A DNA stretch of 64,000 nt from Deltaproteobacteria bacterium. GTDB taxonomy: Bacteria; Desulfobacterota; Syntrophobacteria; Syntrophobacterales; Thermodesulforhabdaceae. Numbering within the stretch: position 1 is the stretch's first letter; each line of letters begins with the position of its first letter. The position numbers and the translations under genes were made by a program. The notes below the pieces were generated by a model. That model was not told the DNA's origin, did not search any database, and worked only from the letters and a program-made list of their open reading frames with translations. This document shows, piece by piece, positions 29,092 to 43,407 of this stretch. Where the stretch lies: positions 1-64,000 of the forward strand of contig JAFDGW010000005.1 in assembly GCA_019309115.1 (NCBI GenBank), in the 5' to 3' direction.

Positions 29092-30702
29092 TTACCTTGC
29101 ACCACCTGACGTAAGCACATTCCGTGCCGTTTCAAGCAACCCTTCGGGAAAGCCGACAAGGGGGAAAAGCACCATAAAACCCAGTACCCACACCAGCACC
29201 AGAGACAGAATCCAGGCCACAAACCCGTATTTAACAAAATCCACAGGCTCGATGGCGTTTTTCCCGGTATCGGGATAGGTCCCCAGTGCATAGACTATAG
29301 CGTTATTGGGAGTGCCCACAATCAGGAAGTGGGCAAAGGATGTAGCAAAGGCCGTGGCAAGGCCCGATGCCCAAGGCTCTGCCGGGTGACCGGACATGAT
29401 GCTCATGGGCACCACGATAGGCCCGAGCAGTGCAGTCACTCCGGCATCGGACATGAAGTTGGTCATGACTCCCGAGAACGCCGAAAGCCCGATCCAGAGC
29501 CCCAGTCCCTGACCTATTCCAACGGACTTGAGAGCATCTAGGAAGGTGCTGGCAAGCCACATAGCCGCTCCACTCTTCTTAAGAAGCTCACCGAGAGTGA
29601 GAGCTCCGCAGTACATGAACCAGGCATCCCACGATATGCCGTGCAGAATCTTCTGCCATGGTGTAATGCGAAAGATAACGGGGATGAGCAACGCCAGAAG
29701 GGATGGGCCGCCGAGGCCGAGGCCATGTCCTCCGAAGATCCAGAGCAGCAGAATCAAAAGGAGCATGCCAAGGGTGACCCATTCTTCATATTTCATTTTT
29801 CCCATCTGCTTGGTTTCTTCCTTAAGAGCCGCAAGACCAGGAGTAAGGTCCTTTGTTTTGATATTGCGTCCGAATATAACGAGCATGTAAACGGCAACCA
29901 TCAAACCAAGTACGGGGGCCAGAGGAAAGCCATATTTCATCCAGGTAAAGAAGTCCATGGGAACCTTGTAACCTTCCCAGAAACCCATCATGAGAACGTT
30001 TCGGCCGCCTGCTGCGGGAGATCCCACACCACCGACGTTGAGAGAAAAACAGAGGGCAAAGAGGAGAAATTTCGCCAGGGCAGGATCATGTTCAACTTGC
30101 CCCGAAGGGCTTTTTGCAAGGACAGATCCATAATAGACTGCCATTATCACTGGCGTCATGAAGGCGCACATGGCATGGGCCGAAATAAAGGAGCCTATGA
30201 TGGACATGCTTATGCAAAGGACAAAGACCGGAACCAGGAATCCCCGGGTCCAGCCAAGAATCCAGGTTGCAAGGCGCTTGTGAAGACCAACCTCCACCAC
30301 AACAACCCCCATGGCAAGAACTCCAAGCAGGAACATGGGAGCATCACCGGCAAAGCTCTTTCCGACTTCCTTTTTGGGTAGAAGCCCCAGAAAGTAAGCC
30401 AGGATGGGCATCAGAATCCCCGTTAGACCTATGGGAAGAGCCTCGGTGGCAAAGAAGATGACGGCCATGGGAATTATTCCAAGAACAATCATGGTCTTTC
30501 GGGCTGCTTCGTTTACATCATGGGCCAAATGCCACTTTATCATTTGATCGGCAAATCCCTGGTCGGAGATGATTTTCACCAGGCTTTCGGGTGGCGGTAT
30601 AAGGAAACCCACAATAACGAACACTGCCGCACCGATACAAAGCCAAAGGGTTTTGTTTGCCAAAATTCCCTTTTTTGTGGGAGCGTGTACTTCGTGAGCC
30701 AT
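29092..30702 (-). CDS. DASS/SLC13-type sodium:anion symporter (probable sulfate or dicarboxylate)
   Basis: The 536-residue membrane protein has about twelve hydrophobic segments. It shows the features of the divalent-anion:sodium symporter family, such as ASNV-like loops replaced here by SPAAGGRNV in the middle and VGTPNNAIVYA near the end, each a Ser/Thr-Pro/Asn hairpin that binds substrate carboxylate or sulfate in relatives. In a sulfate reducer, sodium-coupled sulfate import is plausible, but C4-dicarboxylates cannot be excluded. The start at 30702 follows a GGGGG stretch; an upstream ATG at 30777 would add an atypical N-terminus. It lies between two receivers and downstream of a CBS protein. 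Confidence 0.88.
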   Translation of the reverse strand: MAHEVHAPTKKGILANKTLWLCIGAAVFVIVGFLIPPPESLVKIISDQGFADQMIKWHLAHDVNEAARKTMIVLGIIPMAVIFFATEALPIGLTGILMPILAYFLGLLPKKEVGKSFAGDAPMFLLGVLAMGVVVVEVGLHKRLATWILGWTRGFLVPVFVLCISMSIIGSFISAHAMCAFMTPVIMAVYYGSVLAKSPSGQVEHDPALAKFLLFALCFSLNVGGVGSPAAGGRNVLMMGFWEGYKVPMDFFTWMKYGFPLAPVLGLMVAVYMLVIFGRNIKTKDLTPGLAALKEETKQMGKMKYEEWVTLGMLLLILLLWIFGGHGLGLGGPSLLALLIPVIFRITPWQKILHGISWDAWFMYCGALTLGELLKKSGAAMWLASTFLDALKSVGIGQGLGLWIGLSAFSGVMTNFMSDAGVTALLGPIVVPMSIMSGHPAEPWASGLATAFATSFAHFLIVGTPNNAIVYALGTYPDTGKNAIEPVDFVKYGFVAWILSLVLVWVLGFMVLFPLVGFPEGLLETARNVLTSGGAR

Positions 30703-30781
30703 GACGTAAATCCCCCTTTCGCATGATAGATTCACACGATCATCTTCAAAAATTGCGTTATAAACTTCTAATACCAATTAG

Positions 30782-31234
30782 TTATGGATCTTCTTTGTCT
30801 TCCAGGACAGCTCTGGGCGATTCAAAATATCGCATCATCTTGGCCTTTCTTATTCGGTCTTCCTGCTCTGCCTTTCTAGAATAAGCGGCCTGCACCTTTG
30901 TCACCAGATCGTCAATCTCCGTCGGTTTTAAAAGGTAGTCATAGGCCCCAAGTTTCATTCCTTCAATGGCAGTTTCAACAGTGGCATGACCGGTAAGCAT
31001 TATTACTTCGGTAAGGGGTTTGAGATTTTTGATTTCTCTTAGAGTCTGAACCCCATCCATCCCCGGCATGGCCACATCCAAAATGACCACATCGTAGTTG
31101 TACTCTTTGACCATGCCCACCGCCTCCTCACCACTGTAAGCCTTTGACACATCAAAGTCTCGAAACTCAAGACGCTCGGCCAGAGAATCGGTAAAATCCT
31201 TTTCGTCATCCACAATTAAAAGACGTATCTTCAT
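30782..31234 (-). CDS. Stand-alone response regulator receiver with helical tail
   Basis: The 150-residue protein is a receiver (VDDE; Asp in VVILDVAMPGMDG; Thr in MLTGHA; Lys in LLKPTE) with a charged tail of about 35 residues. It precedes the symporter gene by about 80 bases and follows the CBS gene by 28 bases. Its closest relatives in the window are at 28583 and 12954. It has no DNA-binding domain. Confidence 0.9.
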   Translation of the reverse strand: MKIRLLIVDDEKDFTDSLAERLEFRDFDVSKAYSGEEAVGMVKEYNYDVVILDVAMPGMDGVQTLREIKNLKPLTEVIMLTGHATVETAIEGMKLGAYDYLLKPTEIDDLVTKVQAAYSRKAEQEDRIRKAKMMRYFESPRAVLEDKEDP

Positions 31235-31262: not shown

Positions 31263-31850
31263 CTATATCGGACACGCTTCAATCGCCGAAGCAATTACCT
31301 CAAACACATCAACCAGCCTTAAAATCCCTACAATTTCACCACTTCTGTCCAAGACCAGCAAAGACTGATGCTGCCCCATAACAAGCTTGTGAACAGCTCT
31401 GTCCAGGGTGTCCTCATCACGGACGTATTCCCCTTCCTGAGGTGTGTACATAAAGTCACGCACCCTCCTTTCAGCCGCCTTTTGACAGAGATCCTTAAGG
31501 CCTGAGGAAAAGAGGCCGTACCTTTCAATCAAATCTTCAAGGAACTCGGCACTGAAACCGCTTGCTGCAAGCCTGCCCAAAGATGGCGATGTCATTATAC
31601 GAGCATACTGAGGTTCCAAAGCCCTGAGAACATCGAGCTGACTGATCTTGCCCACAACCCGGCCCTGAGAGTCAAGGACAAGGACAGCCCGATGGGGATA
31701 ACGAACTTCCCTCGAAGCTTTTGCTTGCTCAAGATACTTCTTCTGAACTTCCCTGAGCACCCGCACTGCTTCGTAGAGCGTAGCATTTTCGCTAACTGTG
31801 GTATATTCACCAAGCGGTATCATAAGATCCTTAACTTTTAGCCGCTTCAT
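31263..31850 (-). CDS. CBS-domain pair protein
   Basis: The 195-residue protein has two CBS motifs, about 5-90 (VLVLDSQGRVVGKISQLDVLRAL) and 128-190 (LLVLDRSGEIVGILRLVDVFEVI), separated by a 35-residue helical insert. CBS pairs bind adenine nucleotides and often gate transporters or enzymes by energy charge. It is the first gene of the symporter operon, just after the sigma-54 promoter at 31905, so it may report energy state to the symporter or receivers. That role is inferred. Confidence 0.9.
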   Translation of the reverse strand: MKRLKVKDLMIPLGEYTTVSENATLYEAVRVLREVQKKYLEQAKASREVRYPHRAVLVLDSQGRVVGKISQLDVLRALEPQYARIMTSPSLGRLAASGFSAEFLEDLIERYGLFSSGLKDLCQKAAERRVRDFMYTPQEGEYVRDEDTLDRAVHKLVMGQHQSLLVLDRSGEIVGILRLVDVFEVIASAIEACPI

Positions 31851-32037: not shown

Positions 32038-32670
32038 CTATTCCTTGATCTCTCTTGTCCTGATGGCTACATCTTTCCCTATATCTGCCTCGGCCTCTAT
32101 TAGAGCCATTGTTTTTCGGAAGGATGCATCTTCAAGGAGTGCCCTCAAGGTGGGGTATTCAGACCTGGGGGAACCATTTGGGCAAAATATCACAGCAACC
32201 CCGGAGTCCTCACCAAAACATCTTATTTCTATGGGTTCAGTAGCATCTATGTCATCGGCAAGGCTCATTAGTACTGCGAAGTGCACCATATTCCATTTGA
32301 CCGCATAGGTTTTTATAATAATGGGATCGACCTGGGTCAAAAAACATTCTCTCTTCTTTTGTCTCAGAAAACGCTGGGAAAGAACAGCCATATCCTGAAG
32401 ACTCTGTCTCACGTCTAGGCTCTGAATCGGAAAGTCCGTACTGTGAGCGTAACGATTAAGGGCGCTGAGAATAGCCTGGCCTCTAGATATCTGCTCCTTG
32501 ATGAGTACGAACTTTGAGCTGAACTTCTCATAGGCTCCTTTAAACTGCAAAATGTCTTCTACAAGCCCGGCAGACTCCCCGATGATTGCCAGAACATTTC
32601 TCAACTCATGAGTTGCCCCTGCCGTCAGTTTGCCAATAAAGGCCGACTCTCGTACTTTCCAATCTTCCAT
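32038..32670 (-). CDS. Histidine-kinase-like protein with degenerate ATPase domain
   Basis: The 210-residue protein keeps a DHp-like H box (ATHELRNVLAIIGESAGL, His21) but the following part lacks the D-x-G-x-G and G-x-G-L-G boxes of HATPase; the N-box region reads VHFAVLMSLADDID. It has no membrane segment. It is probably not an active kinase, but could be a histidine phosphotransfer protein or a phosphatase for the receiver encoded just upstream (32693, gap 22 bases). The ATG at 32670 has GGAG eight bases upstream. The H-box extension resembles that of the nearby Cache kinases, so it may descend from one of them. Confidence 0.75.
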   Translation of the reverse strand: MEDWKVRESAFIGKLTAGATHELRNVLAIIGESAGLVEDILQFKGAYEKFSSKFVLIKEQISRGQAILSALNRYAHSTDFPIQSLDVRQSLQDMAVLSQRFLRQKKRECFLTQVDPIIIKTYAVKWNMVHFAVLMSLADDIDATEPIEIRCFGEDSGVAVIFCPNGSPRSEYPTLRALLEDASFRKTMALIEAEADIGKDVAIRTREIKE

Positions 32671-32692
32671 CTGTCTTCTCCGCTTTTTTCCT

Positions 32693-33067
32693 TCATGAAG
32701 TCTGGGTAGCCTCAAAAATCTTTTCCATAAGAGTATCAATATCGAGAGGCTTCATAAGGTAGTCAAAAGCCCCAAGCCTCATACCCTCAATACCATCCTT
32801 GGTATCTCCATGACCCGTAAGAAGTATCACCGGAAGATCCGGCTTGATGGACTTTATTTGCCTCAACACATCAAGACCACTCATACCTGGCATTCTTACA
32901 TCCAGAACCACAACATCCACATCGGATTGATCGAGTAAATCCATGGCTTCGATCCCGTCCAGTGCAACACGGGTCATCAATCCTCTAAGCTCAAGCCTTT
33001 CAGCCAAAGTCCTCACAAATTCTTCCTCGTCATCCACAAGCAATACTCGGCATTTCTTCTCCATCAT
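32693..33067 (-). CDS. Stand-alone response regulator receiver
   Basis: The 124-residue protein is a receiver with complete site residues (VDDE; Asp in VVVLDVRMPGMSG; Thr in LLTGHG; Lys in LMKPLD) and no output domain. It lies 12 bases after the Cache kinase gene and before the degenerate kinase gene, so a kinase-receiver-phosphotransfer relay is possible. Confidence 0.9.
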   Translation of the reverse strand: MMEKKCRVLLVDDEEEFVRTLAERLELRGLMTRVALDGIEAMDLLDQSDVDVVVLDVRMPGMSGLDVLRQIKSIKPDLPVILLTGHGDTKDGIEGMRLGAFDYLMKPLDIDTLMEKIFEATQTS

Positions 33068-33079
33068 CCACCCCCCAAA

Positions 33080-34804
33080 CTATTCTGCATGCGGTGCCTT
33101 TTTGGGCAGGTACACCGTGAAGGTTGTACCCTCACCTACATGACTCTGGACCTGAATGTCTCCCCCTAGTTTTTTAACTATTCCGTAGGTAATAGGGAGC
33201 CCAAGACCTGTCCCATAACTCTTTTTGGTGGTAAAAAAAGGTTCAAAGATATGCTTCATAGTTTCTTCGTCCATACCGTGACCGTTATCCTGTATACTTA
33301 CGGCAACCTTGTCTGCATCAACCTCCCAGGAGGTTATAGAAACAATTCCTCCATCGGGAACGGCCTCAAAGGCATTATTCAGGATGTTTAGGAAAACTTG
33401 CTGGAGCTGGCCACGGTCCGAAGCTATACGAGGCAGATTCTCCGCAAGCTGTAGCCTCACGTCGATATTCCTGTAGAGGGCTTCTTTCTCCAGGAAGGTC
33501 AGCACCTCACGGACCACTTCGTTTAGATCCAGAACCTCAATCTGCACATCCATACGCCGGGCAAAACCAAGCAAACGGTGTGTGATGTTGCGACACCGAT
33601 CCACCGACTTGAGAATATCCCGTGTTAGGGTTTCCAATCGATCCCGGTAAGGACTCTGAGGCATCTGCGGAAGAAGATCCAGTATGAGACCGGCCTTTTC
33701 GTTGATTATGGCCATGGGATTGTTGATTTCATGGGCAACTCCTGCAGCAAGACGCCCCAGAGAAGAAAGCTTGTGGTGATGTTGTAACTCCCTGAAGGCC
33801 GCTTCCCTTTTTTCATCAGCCTCTTTTATCCTGTTAACAAAGATCCCTGTAATCTTAATCACAACAAAAAGAACTATCAGGGTACCACCAACAAAGAGAA
33901 CAAGCATTTCACTTTTTAGAGTCGTCCAGGCTTTAAGAACCCTTACCTTCGGCTTCACCATTACAAGAATCAGATTGGGCTCACGAAGGAATGCGTAGCT
34001 CATAAAGAGCTCTCTTCCCTGGTCATCCCTTAATGACACCACGGAGGGCTGATAGGTGGGAGACGGAATGGGAAACGATAGTCTATCGAGGACGTTACCG
34101 TAGAACTTTGACGGAGTCTGGAGTATGCCTTCCCGGTTTATCAAAAAGGCATCACTTTCGGGGTCCAGGCTCATGGAAAGTATAACATCATTGAGCCGAT
34201 CGGTATCAATTGTTGCCCTCACTATCCAGCTTTTTCCGCCGGGCACGGAGCTTTCTACTGCAACGACCATGTGGGGAAATTTACGGTACCCCAAAAATAC
34301 ATCACTTACATAACTGCCCTTGACCCGGACCTCGTGAAACCATGGTTGTTCGGAATAATCCTTGCCGAGGAGCTGATAGGGACCCACATAGTTTATCTGT
34401 ATGCCTTTTTCATTGATGATTCCAAGGTCTACAAACCCCTGAAACTCTGTTTTCATTACCGAAAAAATCTGGCTCAACCTCTGAGGATCAGCCAGCTCCT
34501 CAAAGGAATATGCTTTTGAGACAAAGCTTACCGTTGCGACCCGCTCAGCAATAAAAAGCTCCAGGGAGTGCTTGGCCTTACCCACAAGGGATTGCATAGG
34601 AGATAGAATTTCCTTGTGTAGCGTCGCGCGATATTCCACATAATTTATGAAGGCCATCAAAAAAAGAGGGACAAAGGTCACCAGTATCATGGTGACAGCA
34701 AGATTTCTTCGAAGAATTACATACCTCGCCTCTCCGGCCTTTTCGGGACGGAATGTGAAAAAGTTCTGAAGCCTGGTCCAAAACTTATTCTTCAGAAAGC
34801 TCAT
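33080..34804 (-). CDS. Cache-domain sensor histidine kinase
   Basis: The 574-residue kinase has membrane segments near 34-55 and 300-322 around a Cache sensor (GFVDLGIINEKGIQINYVG; VRATIDTDRLNDVI), then HisKA with AHEINNPMAIINEKAG (His358) and HATPase (DNGHGMD, GTGLGLPITYG). The sensor shares its layout with those of 13769 and 20602. It overlaps the NifX-like gene upstream by 20 bases and precedes its likely receiver partner by 12 bases. Confidence 0.93.
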   Translation of the reverse strand: MSFLKNKFWTRLQNFFTFRPEKAGEARYVILRRNLAVTMILVTFVPLFLMAFINYVEYRATLHKEILSPMQSLVGKAKHSLELFIAERVATVSFVSKAYSFEELADPQRLSQIFSVMKTEFQGFVDLGIINEKGIQINYVGPYQLLGKDYSEQPWFHEVRVKGSYVSDVFLGYRKFPHMVVAVESSVPGGKSWIVRATIDTDRLNDVILSMSLDPESDAFLINREGILQTPSKFYGNVLDRLSFPIPSPTYQPSVVSLRDDQGRELFMSYAFLREPNLILVMVKPKVRVLKAWTTLKSEMLVLFVGGTLIVLFVVIKITGIFVNRIKEADEKREAAFRELQHHHKLSSLGRLAAGVAHEINNPMAIINEKAGLILDLLPQMPQSPYRDRLETLTRDILKSVDRCRNITHRLLGFARRMDVQIEVLDLNEVVREVLTFLEKEALYRNIDVRLQLAENLPRIASDRGQLQQVFLNILNNAFEAVPDGGIVSITSWEVDADKVAVSIQDNGHGMDEETMKHIFEPFFTTKKSYGTGLGLPITYGIVKKLGGDIQVQSHVGEGTTFTVYLPKKAPHAE

Positions 34805-35180
34805 CCGTGCTTTCTCCTGCCCTTTTGACGAGAATGTTTCCTGCCTTCAGGGTTCCTGATGCAATCCTTTTTTTTACCTCATCCAGTGATCCAACCACGA
34901 AATCAACAACGTTTATCTTCTTCCATGTAAGATAATCGTAATACTCCTGTTCGATACCTCCACACACTACGGTATTGACACCTTCGGAAACAATAAGCCT
35001 GCAAAGGTTTTCCGCCGAGGCTTGAGGAAGCACCACGGTCTTCTCATTGGTAAAACCCTCGCCTTCCCTGTAGGTTCCCAGCCAGGCTTCAGGGGCCATG
35101 TCAAAGCGGCTTGCAACCTCTTCACCTCTCAAGGCAACCAATATCTTCTGCCTCCCTCTTTCCTCCTTCATAATCACCAT
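34785..35180 (-). CDS. NifX/NifB-like dinitrogenase-cofactor domain protein
   Basis: The 131-residue protein matches the dinitrogenase iron-molybdenum cofactor biosynthesis fold (VALRGEEVASRFDMAPEAWL; VNTVVCGGIEQEYYDYLTWKKI). Members bind or carry metal clusters; many in anaerobes are not tied to nitrogen fixation, and no nif genes occur here. The start at 35180 lies just after the activator's stop; 35171 is an alternative with GGGGATGG upstream. Sitting between a PAS activator with four cysteines and a Cache kinase, it may take part in redox or metal sensing; that is inference. Confidence 0.75.
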   Translation of the reverse strand: MVIMKEERGRQKILVALRGEEVASRFDMAPEAWLGTYREGEGFTNEKTVVLPQASAENLCRLIVSEGVNTVVCGGIEQEYYDYLTWKKINVVDFVVGSLDEVKKRIASGTLKAGNILVKRAGESTDELSEE

Positions 35181-35188
35181 CCCCGGTC

Positions 35189-36616
35189 TTATTCGGTTAT
35201 ACCGTACTGTTTCATTTTTCTCCAAAGAGTTGCCCTGCCCCAGCCGAGCATTCTCGCAGCCTTTGATTTTCTGCCTCCACATTTCATCAGCGCTTCCAGA
35301 ATCATCCGCCTTTCTAAATCCTCCCATTTGACCTGACCAGACTCTGACCTATTTTTCAAGAGATTTACATCTTCGTAAATCGCGCCATAGCTTCGAGAGG
35401 CCATCTCTTCGTCGCTCTTACCCTGTGACTGTACCGCCTCCACCACATAGGAAGGAATGTGCTCCAGGGTAATGAAAGCCCCAGTACAGATGTTCACAGC
35501 ATATTCCACAATGTTTTTTAGCTCGCGCACATTTCCGGGGTAACTGTACTTCAGAAGGACATTGCGAGCTTCGGAAGAGAATCGGGAAACCCTCTTCCCA
35601 AATTTAGCCGAAAAAGCTCGCAGGAAGTGATCCATAAGGAGTTGAACATCACCTTCTCGCTCCCTCAGAGGCGGAACGTGGAGCCTCACAACATTGAGCC
35701 TGAAGAGAAGATCTTCTCTAAACCTTCCCTCTCGAACCATTGCCGCCAGGTCTCTATGAGTTGCCGCAATAATACGTACATTAACCCTTACCCCCGTTCC
35801 GCTCCCCAGGGGATAGATTACATGATCATCGAGAAAGGTGAGGAGTTTGACTTGAAGTGAAAGGGGAAGATCTCCGATTTCGGTCAGGAAAAGCGTTCCG
35901 TTGTGAGCAAGTCTGAATCTCCCGGGTTTGTTGTGAGTTGCCCCAGTGAAAGCTCCCTTGACATGACCGAAAAGTTCTGACTCAAGAAGTGTTTCGGGAA
36001 GAGCTCCGCAGTTGATCTTCACAAAGGGCCCTTTTGCCCTGTTGGACATTTTGTGAATCACTTCAGCAAGGAGGTCTTTGCCGGTCCCTGTTTCTCCCGT
36101 TATGAGCACCGATGAGTCGGTTTGAGCAATTCCGGGAAGCATTGCAAAGAGCTTCTCCATTGTGGGGCTCCTTCCTATTATATCCCCGACACTGAAGGGA
36201 TGAGTCGGTGAGTCGGATCGCTGCCCCCCATCCCCCAAATCCTCAACAATCTCCGCATATCCAAGGCATCTACCCTCAGGACTTCGCACCCGGGTGAAGG
36301 TTATGCGAACTGGAACCCTTCTCCGATCCCTTGTAATGATATCCCCTTCCTCCGAAACCGATTCCTCTCCACCAAGATCCTCTCTTACGGGACACCTCCC
36401 TCCACATATGTTGCTCCTGAGAACATGGGAACAGGCAAGACCACAGGCCTCGAAGGATGAATAGCCCGTAAGAACCTCTGCCGCCCTGTTTTGATAAACC
36501 ACCCTACCCTCTTTAGAGATAAAAACCACCGCCACGGGAAGCTCATCAAAGACGCTTCCCAAGGCCACGGGGTCGCTGTAAAGTCCAGCAATAGTTATTC
36601 CAGCCGCAGAACTCAT
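35189..36616 (-). CDS. PAS-domain sigma-54-dependent activator
   Basis: The 475-residue protein has a PAS domain (about 20-130), a sigma-54 AAA+ domain (Walker A GETGTGKD, GAFTGA, FLTEIGDLP with Thr where Asp is usual) and a Fis-type helix-turn-helix (GGRKSKAARMLGWGRATLW). There is no receiver. The PAS domain holds four cysteines (58, 62, 71, 75; C-x3-C-x8-C-x3-C), which could bind a metal or iron-sulfur cluster or sense thiols. It is first in a five-gene operon; AGGAGAGG precedes the ATG. CATAATG repeats lie beside its promoter and beside the promoter at 31905, so it probably controls both the CBS/symporter and the 36861 operons. Confidence 0.93.
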   Translation of the reverse strand: MSSAAGITIAGLYSDPVALGSVFDELPVAVVFISKEGRVVYQNRAAEVLTGYSSFEACGLACSHVLRSNICGGRCPVREDLGGEESVSEEGDIITRDRRRVPVRITFTRVRSPEGRCLGYAEIVEDLGDGGQRSDSPTHPFSVGDIIGRSPTMEKLFAMLPGIAQTDSSVLITGETGTGKDLLAEVIHKMSNRAKGPFVKINCGALPETLLESELFGHVKGAFTGATHNKPGRFRLAHNGTLFLTEIGDLPLSLQVKLLTFLDDHVIYPLGSGTGVRVNVRIIAATHRDLAAMVREGRFREDLLFRLNVVRLHVPPLREREGDVQLLMDHFLRAFSAKFGKRVSRFSSEARNVLLKYSYPGNVRELKNIVEYAVNICTGAFITLEHIPSYVVEAVQSQGKSDEEMASRSYGAIYEDVNLLKNRSESGQVKWEDLERRMILEALMKCGGRKSKAARMLGWGRATLWRKMKQYGITE

Positions 36617-36788: not shown

Positions 36789-36804
36789 AGGAACGGGGGT
36801 TGCA
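36789..36804 (+). promoter_or_regulatory. Sigma-54 promoter for the FAE-motif operon
   Basis: AGGAACGGGGGTTGCA matches TGGCACG-N4-TTGCA with the right ten-base spacing and an ideal -12 box. Transcription would begin near 36814, 47 bases before the ATG at 36861. Confidence 0.68.
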
Positions 36805-36860: not shown

Positions 36861-37142
36861 ATGAAGTTCAAAAAATATCTTGAAGATAGCTTTGCGGCCT
36901 CGGCATTTGCAGAAGAAGGGCTTGATACGGGTAGCTTCGGTTTCAGGCGTACTCTAACGATGGGTGAACTGGCAAATAGTTTAAAGGATCTTTATGCAGC
37001 TGTGGCCTTTGCGGAAGAAAACTGCCATGATGTGGCTATGGAAATCCTGCAGAAAAAGGCTACCCGACCTGCTCTTATCAGGTTCCTTGAAGATGTAGGA
37101 CTAGTCAATGTCCCGGTAAAGCTTTGTGTTGTTAATATGTAG
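36861..37142 (+). CDS. Small protein with two FAE-motif repeats
   Basis: I do not recognise a named family. The 93-residue protein contains two copies of a short motif: LEDSFAASAFAEE (7-19) and LKDLYAAVAFAEE (41-53). The same motif ends both proteins encoded next (IEDVFVSSTFAEA, IEDTMVATTFAEA). Each copy looks helical and resembles one half of a TPR hairpin. The gene is first in a three-gene operon after a sigma-54 promoter, and a GGGAGGATG sequence gives a ribosome site. No signal peptide or membrane segment is seen. It may be an adaptor that binds the receivers through like-to-like helices; this is a guess. Confidence 0.8.
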   Translation: MKFKKYLEDSFAASAFAEEGLDTGSFGFRRTLTMGELANSLKDLYAAVAFAEENCHDVAMEILQKKATRPALIRFLEDVGLVNVPVKLCVVNM

Positions 37143-37161
37143 CCAACTGCCTTAACAGGAT

Positions 37162-37647
37162 ATGAAACCCAGCATTCTCGTTATGGGTGGTGATGAGGAT
37201 TTTCGAGAGAGGCTTGCAGAGATACTCAAAAAAAGAGGTTATCAGGTGTTAACTGCTGCAACCCCGGATGATCCATGTATTCATAACCTGGCCGATATAG
37301 ATATTGTTATTGTAAGTCAACACATATTGACCAGCCGGGAAAGAGACATTTTCAGCGTCTTCAGTTACCTGAAGCCTTCGCCGGAAATCATACTTATGCT
37401 TACCTCTGGAAGCATACAGAGTGCTATTGAAGGGATGAAGAAGGGTGTTTTCGACGATATATACGTACCTTTTGAAATATCGGAGCTTGAAGAGAAGATA
37501 TTTAAAGCTTTCAGAGCCCGGCAGAAGAAGGCTCGGAAGATGAAGCGGTGTAGTCTGAAACAGAAGATAGAGGATGTTTTCGTTTCCTCAACCTTCGCCG
37601 AAGCCAATGTGGAGTTGTCCAATCACAAAAGAAAGAAAACCCATTAA
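37162..37647 (+). CDS. Pseudo-receiver with C-terminal FAE motif
   Basis: The 161-residue protein has a receiver-like fold but lacks the phospho-Asp (VIVSQHIL has Ser at that place) and the conserved Lys (IYVPFE has Val), so it cannot be phosphorylated in the normal way. A basic stretch (RQKKARKMKR) leads to the motif IEDVFVSSTFAEA (136-148). It lies between the small FAE protein and a normal FAE receiver. It could act as a dominant partner or scaffold for the active receiver. Confidence 0.82.
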   Translation: MKPSILVMGGDEDFRERLAEILKKRGYQVLTAATPDDPCIHNLADIDIVIVSQHILTSRERDIFSVFSYLKPSPEIILMLTSGSIQSAIEGMKKGVFDDIYVPFEISELEEKIFKAFRARQKKARKMKRCSLKQKIEDVFVSSTFAEANVELSNHKRKKTH

Positions 37648-37659
37648 CGGAGGCCTCTC

Positions 37660-38118
37660 ATGGAAAAGATAAAGGTGCTTCTCGTCGATGACGAAAAGGA
37701 ATTTGTCGATGCTTTGAGGGAAAGGCTTGAGATACGGGACCTTCCGTCAGGCGTTGCCTACAACGGGGAGCAGGCACTTCAGATCGTCGAAGATGAAATT
37801 CCCGATGTTATTGTATTGGATTTAAAGATGCCGGGAATTGACGGAATGGAGGTTCTAAAAAGGGTCAGAAAAGCCTATCCTCAGGTTCAGGTTATTATTC
37901 TTACAGGACACGGTTCTGAAAAGGACGAGGAGGAAGCACGGCGCCTTGGAGCCTTTGAATATCTTCAGAAACCTGTGGACATAGATGAGCTGGTAAAGCT
38001 CCTTCGCTTGGCCTATAAGAAAAAAATAGAAGACACAATGGTTGCGACTACCTTTGCTGAAGCAGGAGAGTTTGAAACCGCAAGAGACATTATGAAAGAG
38101 GAAAAAGAAAAGGACTAA
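37660..38118 (+). CDS. Receiver with C-terminal FAE motif
   Basis: The 152-residue protein is a complete receiver (VDDE; Asp in VIVLDLKMPGIDG; Thr in ILTGHG; Lys in LQKPVD) followed by a tail with IEDTMVATTFAEAGEFETAR (123-142), which is TPR-like. It has no DNA-binding domain. The motif shared with the two upstream proteins suggests a signalling complex. It is the last gene before a convergent terminator region. Confidence 0.88.
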   Translation: MEKIKVLLVDDEKEFVDALRERLEIRDLPSGVAYNGEQALQIVEDEIPDVIVLDLKMPGIDGMEVLKRVRKAYPQVQVIILTGHGSEKDEEEARRLGAFEYLQKPVDIDELVKLLRLAYKKKIEDTMVATTFAEAGEFETARDIMKEEKEKD

Positions 38119-41963: not shown

Positions 41964-42046
41964 CCTAAGCTTGGTGACGACTGAAGCAGGTTAAAAAGAG
42001 AGAAGTGTCGAGAGCTGAGTGTCAAAGGACAAAGGGAGGTGCACAA

Positions 42047-42346
42047 ATGAGGGGCATCAAAAAAAAGCTTCATGGAATCTTTGGTTTAATTTTTGCCCTT
42101 ATGCCATCGCTTGCTTGGGCAGGAGGTAAAAAAGCAAGTATGCTCGTTGTTGTTGCGGACACACGGCGCATATCCAATCCTATATTCCATTATTTCGCCA
42201 ACTTGTACAACACCAACATAACTCTCTTTGCATTATGGGCCGTGGTCCTAACCGCCCTCTACGGTTGTGCTCTGGGACTCTTGATGGACTTTATCATGGA
42301 GCGGACAGGCCTTGATTTGAGAACACGAAAGATAATCGAACATTAA
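42047..42346 (+). CDS. Small TSUP-associated envelope protein
   Basis: The 99-residue protein has a signal peptide ending in AWA (residues 22-24), a segment with ADTRRISNPIFHYFANLYN, then one membrane helix and a short C-terminus (MERTGLDLRTRKIIEH). I recall similar small proteins encoded before TauE/SafE genes in other sulfate reducers, but no function. Its end resembles that of the 234-residue protein beside the other TSUP gene. GGGAGGTG precedes the ATG at 42047. It is the first gene of the operon and 23 bases before the transporter, so a transporter subunit or stabiliser is likely. Confidence 0.82.
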   Translation: MRGIKKKLHGIFGLIFALMPSLAWAGGKKASMLVVVADTRRISNPIFHYFANLYNTNITLFALWAVVLTALYGCALGLLMDFIMERTGLDLRTRKIIEH

Positions 42347-42369
42347 AGACATAGAAAGGAGGGTGTGGT

Positions 42370-43407
42370 ATGGATTGGCTTTATATTTATATGCCCATAG
42401 CCGGTTTTAAGATCTTTTGGCCAGGTTTGGTGTTGATAGGTTTCAGCGTTGGAGTGATTGGCGGATTTTTCGGGATGGGTGGTGCCTGGATGGTCACTCC
42501 AGGGCTTAATATTCTCGGCTTCCCAATGGCCTTTGCCATAGGAACCGATATTGCCCACATAGCCGGGAAATCAATGATTGCCACGTTCAGGCACGGAAAG
42601 TTTGGCAATGTTGACTACAAGCTCGGATTTGTAATGCTTGTGGGAACAATGATTGGTATAGAATGTGGTGCCAGGATTGTTATGTGGCTTGAGCGCATAG
42701 GACAGGTTGGAAGGGTTGTGAGGTGGGTCTATGTGGTCTTTCTGTTTCTCATAGCACTTATGGTCTTTGTGGACTATGCTAAGGCCGTGAGAAAGAAGAA
42801 AAGGGGCATCGTGGAAGGTGAGAAGGGTGCTGAAGGAATAACCTGGTATAAGACCCTGCACAGAATTAAAATACCGCCAATGGTTCATTTTAAGACTGCA
42901 GGCTTTACCTGTTCGGCCTGGTTGCCGATTATGGTCAGCTATGCCACGGGAGTCCTGGCTGGATTCCTGGGCATCGGGGGCGGACTATTGAGAATGCCTG
43001 CTCTTGTCTATTTCGTTGGTTGTCCCACTCACATAGCCGTCGGAACAGATCTTTTCGAAGTGATGATTTCCGGTCTCTACGGTGCATTTACCTATTCACT
43101 GAAGGGTCGAATTGAGCTGGTTGCCGTATTTATAATGCTTACAGGCGCTGCTATTGGAGCTCAAATTGGGACCGTCGCAACCAAATACTCCAAAGGGTAC
43201 GGCATAAGAGTGGCCTTTGGATCTGCCGTGGTATGCTGCATGATCTCCATCATACTCAAACAGCTCAAGTACAACCTGCCCGCTGCAATCCTCATTCTTG
43301 GTGCGATTACAACGATTTCTCTCTACATCATGATAACTATGTTCAGAGGCGCAGCTGCAGAGCTTCGTGAGAAAAAGGCTCGTATGGCAACAGCTCATTC
43401 TTCTTAA
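42370..43407 (+). CDS. TauE/SafE (TSUP) family anion transporter
   Basis: The 345-residue membrane protein has about eight hydrophobic segments in two halves with the signatures FFGMGGAWMVTPGLNIL and FLGIGGGLLRMPALVYF. It is shorter than the TSUP at 11638 and lacks its N-terminal extension. GAAAGGAGGGTG lies upstream. Being in a sigma-54 operon with four small envelope proteins and a receiver, it may move sulfate, sulfite or another anion under signal control. Substrate and direction are unknown. Confidence 0.92.
   Translation: MDWLYIYMPIAGFKIFWPGLVLIGFSVGVIGGFFGMGGAWMVTPGLNILGFPMAFAIGTDIAHIAGKSMIATFRHGKFGNVDYKLGFVMLVGTMIGIECGARIVMWLERIGQVGRVVRWVYVVFLFLIALMVFVDYAKAVRKKKRGIVEGEKGAEGITWYKTLHRIKIPPMVHFKTAGFTCSAWLPIMVSYATGVLAGFLGIGGGLLRMPALVYFVGCPTHIAVGTDLFEVMISGLYGAFTYSLKGRIELVAVFIMLTGAAIGAQIGTVATKYSKGYGIRVAFGSAVVCCMISIILKQLKYNLPAAILILGAITTISLYIMITMFRGAAAELREKKARMATAHSS

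Follow-up and report, generated by a model that had tools for sequence, protein, structure and literature searches.

Sulfate uptake is the first step in dissimilatory sulfate reduction and, to our knowledge, how it is switched is largely unknown. Two sets of genes, described separately from one another, come closest to the locus analyzed here. In Desulfosarcina variabilis, a DASS sulfate-transporter cluster contains Cache kinases and CBS proteins, and passages of the same report place related clusters in 26 SRB species (PMC11887813). In Desulfovibrio vulgaris, the receiver-Lon three-component system consists of three signalling genes, DVU3303-3305, that act together genetically, and DVU3299, a putative anion transporter, is important under chlorate (PMC10102598); DVU3305 controls DVU3302-3298, and genes of the DVU3298-3302 region respond to high pH, heat and stationary phase (PMC3333781). 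The protein module described below, which we call the FAE module, connects these two systems.

The locus lies in a stretch of 64,000 nucleotides from a Deltaproteobacteria bacterium (contig JAFDGW010000005.1, positions 1 to 64,000), referred to here as the window. Likened by content, not by sequence, this locus, which we call type I, belongs with the DASS clusters of SRB as passages of the D. variabilis report present them: a Cache kinase, receivers, a CBS protein and a DASS permease are found together in both. It differs in its FAE module, its protein with two copies of that module and its candidate phosphotransferase, none of which is mentioned in those passages. The activator-to-permease part of the locus consists of the following genes.

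29092-30777, minus strand: DASS-type anion permease (CitMHS / Na_sulph_symp)
30782-31234, minus strand: single-domain receiver RR150
31263-31850, minus strand: CBS-domain protein
32038-32739, minus strand: 233-aa candidate Spo0B/ChpT-like phosphotransferase, H-box kept, ATP-binding G-boxes absent
32693-33067, minus strand: single-domain receiver RR124
33080-34804, minus strand: Cache-domain histidine kinase
34785-35327, minus strand: NifX/MrpORP-like small protein, conserved in type I loci
35189-36616, minus strand: PAS-AAA+-Fis sigma-54 activator, GAFTGA present, divergent from ORF1

In relatives, the order of the type I locus is EBP (the sigma-54 activator)-NifX-Cache HK-RR-HPt-like-ORF1-ORF2-REC/FAE-RR-CBS-DASS, the HPt-like gene encoding a kinase-like protein of 225-240 aa; ORF1-3 and the activator-to-permease part are on opposite strands both in the window and in its closest relative. 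The 233-aa protein is, by its sequence, a candidate phosphotransferase of the Spo0B/ChpT kind. It matches kinases of known structure along its length, with PDB matches down to 6e-16. Residues H44 and N48 are invariant in 13 aligned members of the family, and no DxGxG box is seen in the 19 homologues listed. Like Spo0B and ChpT, the family is thus kinase-related with the H-box kept and the G-boxes gone; unlike them, its sequence is nearer to ordinary HisKA kinases, and its match to the HPTransfase Pfam family is at noise level. Together, the kinase, a single receiver, the phosphotransferase and a second receiver would make up the set that a phosphorelay requires.

The three genes that carry the FAE module in the window are preceded by a promoter element and are encoded one after another.

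36789-36804, plus strand: sigma-54 -24/-12 box AGGAACGGGGGTTGCA, 56 bp upstream of ORF1, shuffle p 0.003
36861-37142, plus strand: ORF1, 93 aa, two FAE modules and a C-terminal FLExVGLxxVxVxYGxxxx segment
36879-36917, plus strand: first FAE copy of ORF1 (residues 7-19), degenerate over its second half in the source genome
36981-37055, plus strand: second FAE copy of ORF1, a full-length module (residues 41-65)
37162-37647, plus strand: ORF2, 161-aa pseudo-receiver with a C-terminal FAE module, phospho-Asp and active-site Lys replaced
37552-37614, plus strand: FAE module of ORF2 (residues 131-151), second half truncated
37660-38118, plus strand: ORF3, 152-aa intact receiver with a C-terminal FAE module, Response_reg 1.3e-30
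38008-38106, plus strand: FAE module of ORF3 (residues 117-149)

The original prediction placed a 13-residue motif at four positions in these proteins, and all four copies are there: residues 7-19 (LEDSFAASAFAEE) and 41-53 (LKDLYAAVAFAEE) of ORF1, residues 136-148 of ORF2 (IEDVFVSSTFAEA) and residues 123-135 of ORF3 (IEDTMVATTFAEA). The last copy continues as GEFETARDIM, in agreement with the GEFETAR that had been pointed out. The motif had been drawn too short, being the core of a helical module of about 32 residues with the consensus xxKxKLEDxMxAxTFAEAGxFxTARxxMxE. In ORF1 copy 1 and in the ORF2 copy, the second half of the module has been lost and only the first half is kept.

ORF3 had been taken for an active receiver and ORF2 for an inactive one, and both assignments hold. 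The Pfam match of ORF3 is accompanied by an active site (D10, D11, D54, T82, K104) that is invariant in 17 sequences, the MVA.TFAE core of the tail being invariant in the same 17 (alignment A4), and the structures that Foldseek lists for its predicted model are all receivers, with those of Spo0F and CpxR at 4e-12. ORF2, at 0.00026, falls below the cut-off for Response_reg; its phospho-acceptor Asp is replaced (VSQHIL), and in most homologues the conserved Lys is V or I (VPF/IPF; alignment A5). ORF1 has homologues in 15 of 98 relatives, and in ORF1 and most of these homologues the two FAE copies are followed by the conserved FLExVGLxxVxVxYG segment. This segment (window 37083-37139, plus strand) is repeated in some homologues (L088, L071) and is not known to belong to any family.

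Since the stretch is short and Ala-rich, and within the window only 13 residues are alike, the likeness might be thought a chance resemblance of Ala-rich helices. The chance test used profile HMMs trained exclusively on sequences from other genomes. An HMM of ten receiver tails, all from other genomes, gives E-values of 2.5e-20 for ORF3, 8.8e-8 for ORF1 and 5e-4 for ORF2. The ORF that ranks next in the window reaches 0.45, and the best score in a five-fold shuffled set is 0.85. A second HMM, made from the free-standing small proteins of other genomes, recovers the same trio. When the 2.5-Mb genome from which the window comes was searched with a 25-sequence profile (A1) at E<=10, six places were found, namely the four copies in the window and two on another contig (C70), so that the genome has five FAE proteins at two loci and no further copies. 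The module is therefore not widespread at chance level, as neither the genome nor the shuffled set gives any background, and it is conserved in the orthologues of these genes and over many families. Chance origin is ruled out by the window HMM tests and the whole-genome search, its probability being next to nil; the original observation is correct and far above chance. One part of it needs to be widened: ORF1-3 are not the only carriers, as others exist at the second locus and in other genomes.

No named domain had been recognized for the motif, and none was found here. Pfam gives no significant match to the module, apart from a weak touch of TPR_4 in three of 25 members (best E 0.019), a PDB sequence search with the module profile returns only noise, and a literature search on the motif letters yields no name. 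With ORF1 as the query, Pfam, NCBIfam and PHROGs give no significant match, and the PDB gives designed TPR and alpha solenoid proteins at just E 0.05-0.3. The likeness to half a TPR that had been pointed out is supported as far as the spacing goes. Like a TPR, the module has about 32-34 residues, in what may be a helix-turn-helix spacing, and its F, G, A and M align in register with Y11, G15, A20 and F24 of the consensus TPR, at an hhalign probability of 22%. In contrast to TPRs, it occurs in single copies rather than in arrays, and the FAE core is specific to it. "TPR-like" is thus a resemblance rather than a membership. In the AlphaFold2 (AF2) model of ORF1, which is poor (pLDDT 54), helices span residues 34-52 and 56-64, so that copy 2 is predicted, at low confidence, as a hairpin. 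In the AF2 model of ORF3 (pLDDT 88), the tail is one long helix that continues alpha5 (pLDDT ~65), with no hairpin.

The module was observed in seven settings: as a free-standing protein of about 56 aa with a basic, Pro-rich C-terminus; twice in ORF1-type proteins; behind intact receivers; behind pseudo-receivers; ahead of a universal-stress-like domain; inside a universal-stress domain (a 168-aa protein of locus L101, Usp 1.7e-8); and, as a weak copy, before a membrane-spanning protein directly upstream of TauE (L137 3995-4408, plus strand). Two further genomes from that genus show a weak match like this last one. In a draw of 394 Desulfobacterota genomes, each at least 90% complete, which was used for both the spread and the dsrA scans, FAE is found at E<=0.01 in 63 genomes and in 43 of 248 genera. 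Among these 63 genomes, 59 have dsrA, versus 145 of the 331 others (Fisher 9e-15, kinship ignored), a relation that is an association only. Carriers include Desulfacinum infernum, MAGs assigned to Desulfovibrio, Humidesulfovibrio, Desulfomonile and Desulfobulbus, and many Desulfobacterales; the module is also found in two Nitrospirae MAGs and one Melioribacteraceae MAG. Of the 35 named loci, 23 have an identified permease of the DASS or TauE/SafE kind, and several of the remainder are short contigs. The 32-residue profile can be used to list candidate regulators of anion transporters in any genome.

The second FAE locus of the source genome, on contig C70 (L065), is of a different kind, which we call type II. 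Its order is a receiver-Lon gene (LonRR) followed by small FAE-USP/FAE(s)-DASS or TauE-HK-NtrC, and in most type II loci the receiver-Lon adjoins the small FAE gene and is divergently encoded. Receiver-Lon, HK and NtrC stand beside USP and anion transporter genes in L065, most of L100-L118, L133 and L135. At L065 8619-10637 (plus strand), the Lon protease has an inserted receiver domain and is divergent from the small FAE gene. The small FAE proteins, such as those at L065 8189-8359 (minus strand), L101 6560-6736 and L132 8407-8583, have conserved basic C-terminal tails that end in RPx(L/M)R(A/I/V), RPRxRVYRT or RPRPSLKA; the first two of these forms may resemble the ClpX-binding tail of SspB (RPxLRxxx-type). 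No basic tail of this kind is seen in ORF1-3. Compared by layout, the type II loci of four genomes from a single family (f45), in which the small protein carries FAE, match DVU3298-3305, where a receiver-Lon, an HK and an NtrC control a sigma-54 operon next to them that encodes UspA proteins and an anion transporter. The type II loci differ in the FAE module, of which PMC3333781 and PMC10102598 give no description.

In the original prediction, the shared stretch looked like a docking helix that gathers ORF1, ORF2 and ORF3, or else like a tag in common that an external partner would recognize. A shared module is indeed present on the receiver, the pseudo-receiver and the two-copy protein, but mutual docking cannot be its sole role. 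In five minimal type I loci (L087, L090, L095, L098 and L136), the FAE receiver is present and ORF1 and ORF2 are absent beside it. The L095 genome has one FAE place only at E<=5, and three related genomes (G131, G156 and G220) each have a strong place and a second, weak place at E ~0.02; in G131 the weak place adjoins TauE. Because some genomes have a clear FAE on one protein only, pairing between different FAE proteins is not the sole role of the module. These FAE receivers with no second clear FAE protein therefore favor a shared non-FAE partner or self-pairing, either of which is more likely than pairing among different FAE proteins. The idea of a tag for an outside partner fits the single-carrier cases better than mutual docking does, as does self-pairing.

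The module is homologous across architectures, and both locus types occur within one genome. These observations, along with the conserved gene orders, the invariance of both receiver active site and MVA.TFAE tail, the H-box without G-boxes, the dsrA association and the published clusters, speak for a reading to which we give about an even chance: FAE is a small, mobile helical docking module whose carriers are soluble proteins that regulate stress and the uptake of anions (probably of the sulfate type), chiefly in dissimilatory sulfate reducers. The poor ORF1 model, the unbroken helix predicted for the ORF3 tail and the loci with a single FAE protein weigh against it. The substrate of the permease is judged from its family and the literature. 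In a type I locus, the Cache kinase would sense a signal, and phosphate would pass from it, by way of the single receivers and the kinase-like phosphotransferase, to the receiver of ORF3. Because ORF3 has no DNA-binding domain, its output would have to be made by contact, and the FAE tail would be that contact. The two-module ORF1 and the pseudo-receiver ORF2, which has a single module, may play an accessory part, either as bridges to the partner that ORF3 contacts or as competitors for it. That partner could be a member of the conserved core (the kinase or phosphotransferase, the second receiver, the CBS protein or the permease) or the module itself. In a type II locus, the same module would act on the small basic protein and the universal-stress proteins, with the permease adjoining. 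More tentatively, and we regard this wider version as doubtful, FAE may be an undescribed domain family that provides the control of anion uptake in sulfate reducers with a common docking code, by which receivers, pseudo-receivers, USPs and small adaptors plug into one partner and couple phosphorelay and stress signals to sulfate/anion permeases at the protein level. Removal of the tail would be a direct handle on such control.

Other readings would explain parts of the same evidence. The long alpha5 predicted for the ORF3 tail, together with genomes in which a single clear FAE protein makes self-pairing sufficient, is what would be expected if FAE were a mere stabilizing or self-pairing helix (an alpha5 extension or small-protein cap) that spread as neighbouring genes were duplicated and fused and that has no partner in common. 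However, a cap would not be required to have the same core on unrelated folds (receiver, USP, free-standing), nor a core as invariant as the receiver active site, and we find this reading rather unlikely. Quite unlikely, in our estimate, is a part in regulated proteolysis, in which FAE would be the recognition or adaptor element for receiver-Lon (or ClpX), with the small basic FAE protein as the adaptor and the USP and receiver proteins as its cargo. The adjoining receiver-Lon in most type II loci, the recurring RPx(L/M)R(A/I/V) or RPRxRVYRT tails and the joint genetic action of DVU3303-3305 (PMC10102598) speak for it, but type I loci have no receiver-Lon and ORF1-3 no basic tail. Moreover, four genomes (G131, G156, G220 and G239) have FAE receivers and no full-length receiver-Lon match, which rules out receiver-Lon as a universal reader of the module.

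The reader might also be the permease itself, with the regulators docked onto the DASS or TSUP transporter encoded nearby, on its cytoplasmic side, so that uptake is gated post-translationally. This would suit the frequency of DASS or TauE/SafE permeases among the named loci and the weak FAE copy of L137, which precedes a membrane-spanning segment directly upstream of TauE. The DASS and TSUP folds are unrelated, however, so that one module for both is less natural, and we regard a permease reader as quite unlikely as well. The reading that we prefer, of FAE as a docking module on soluble regulators, leaves the permease as one of several conceivable partners.

The assignment of ORF1-3 to a sigma-54 operon is well supported by the box AGGAACGGGGGTTGCA before ORF1 and by matching boxes in relatives, such as TGGAACGGCCGTTGCA at the equivalent place in L066. 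Boxes of the -24/-12 type stand 43-61 bp before ORF1 in the window, L066, L085, L086, L089, L093 and L094, and twelve type II loci have one 42-55 bp before their small FAE gene; the upstream scan shows none in several FAE loci. A literature search for DVU0145/0149/0150 returned one passing mention only. Elsewhere in the window (42005-43407, plus strand), a TauE/SafE permease comes directly after a DVU0150-family protein, and the sigma-54-like box GGGCACATTCTTTGCC stands 41 bp upstream.
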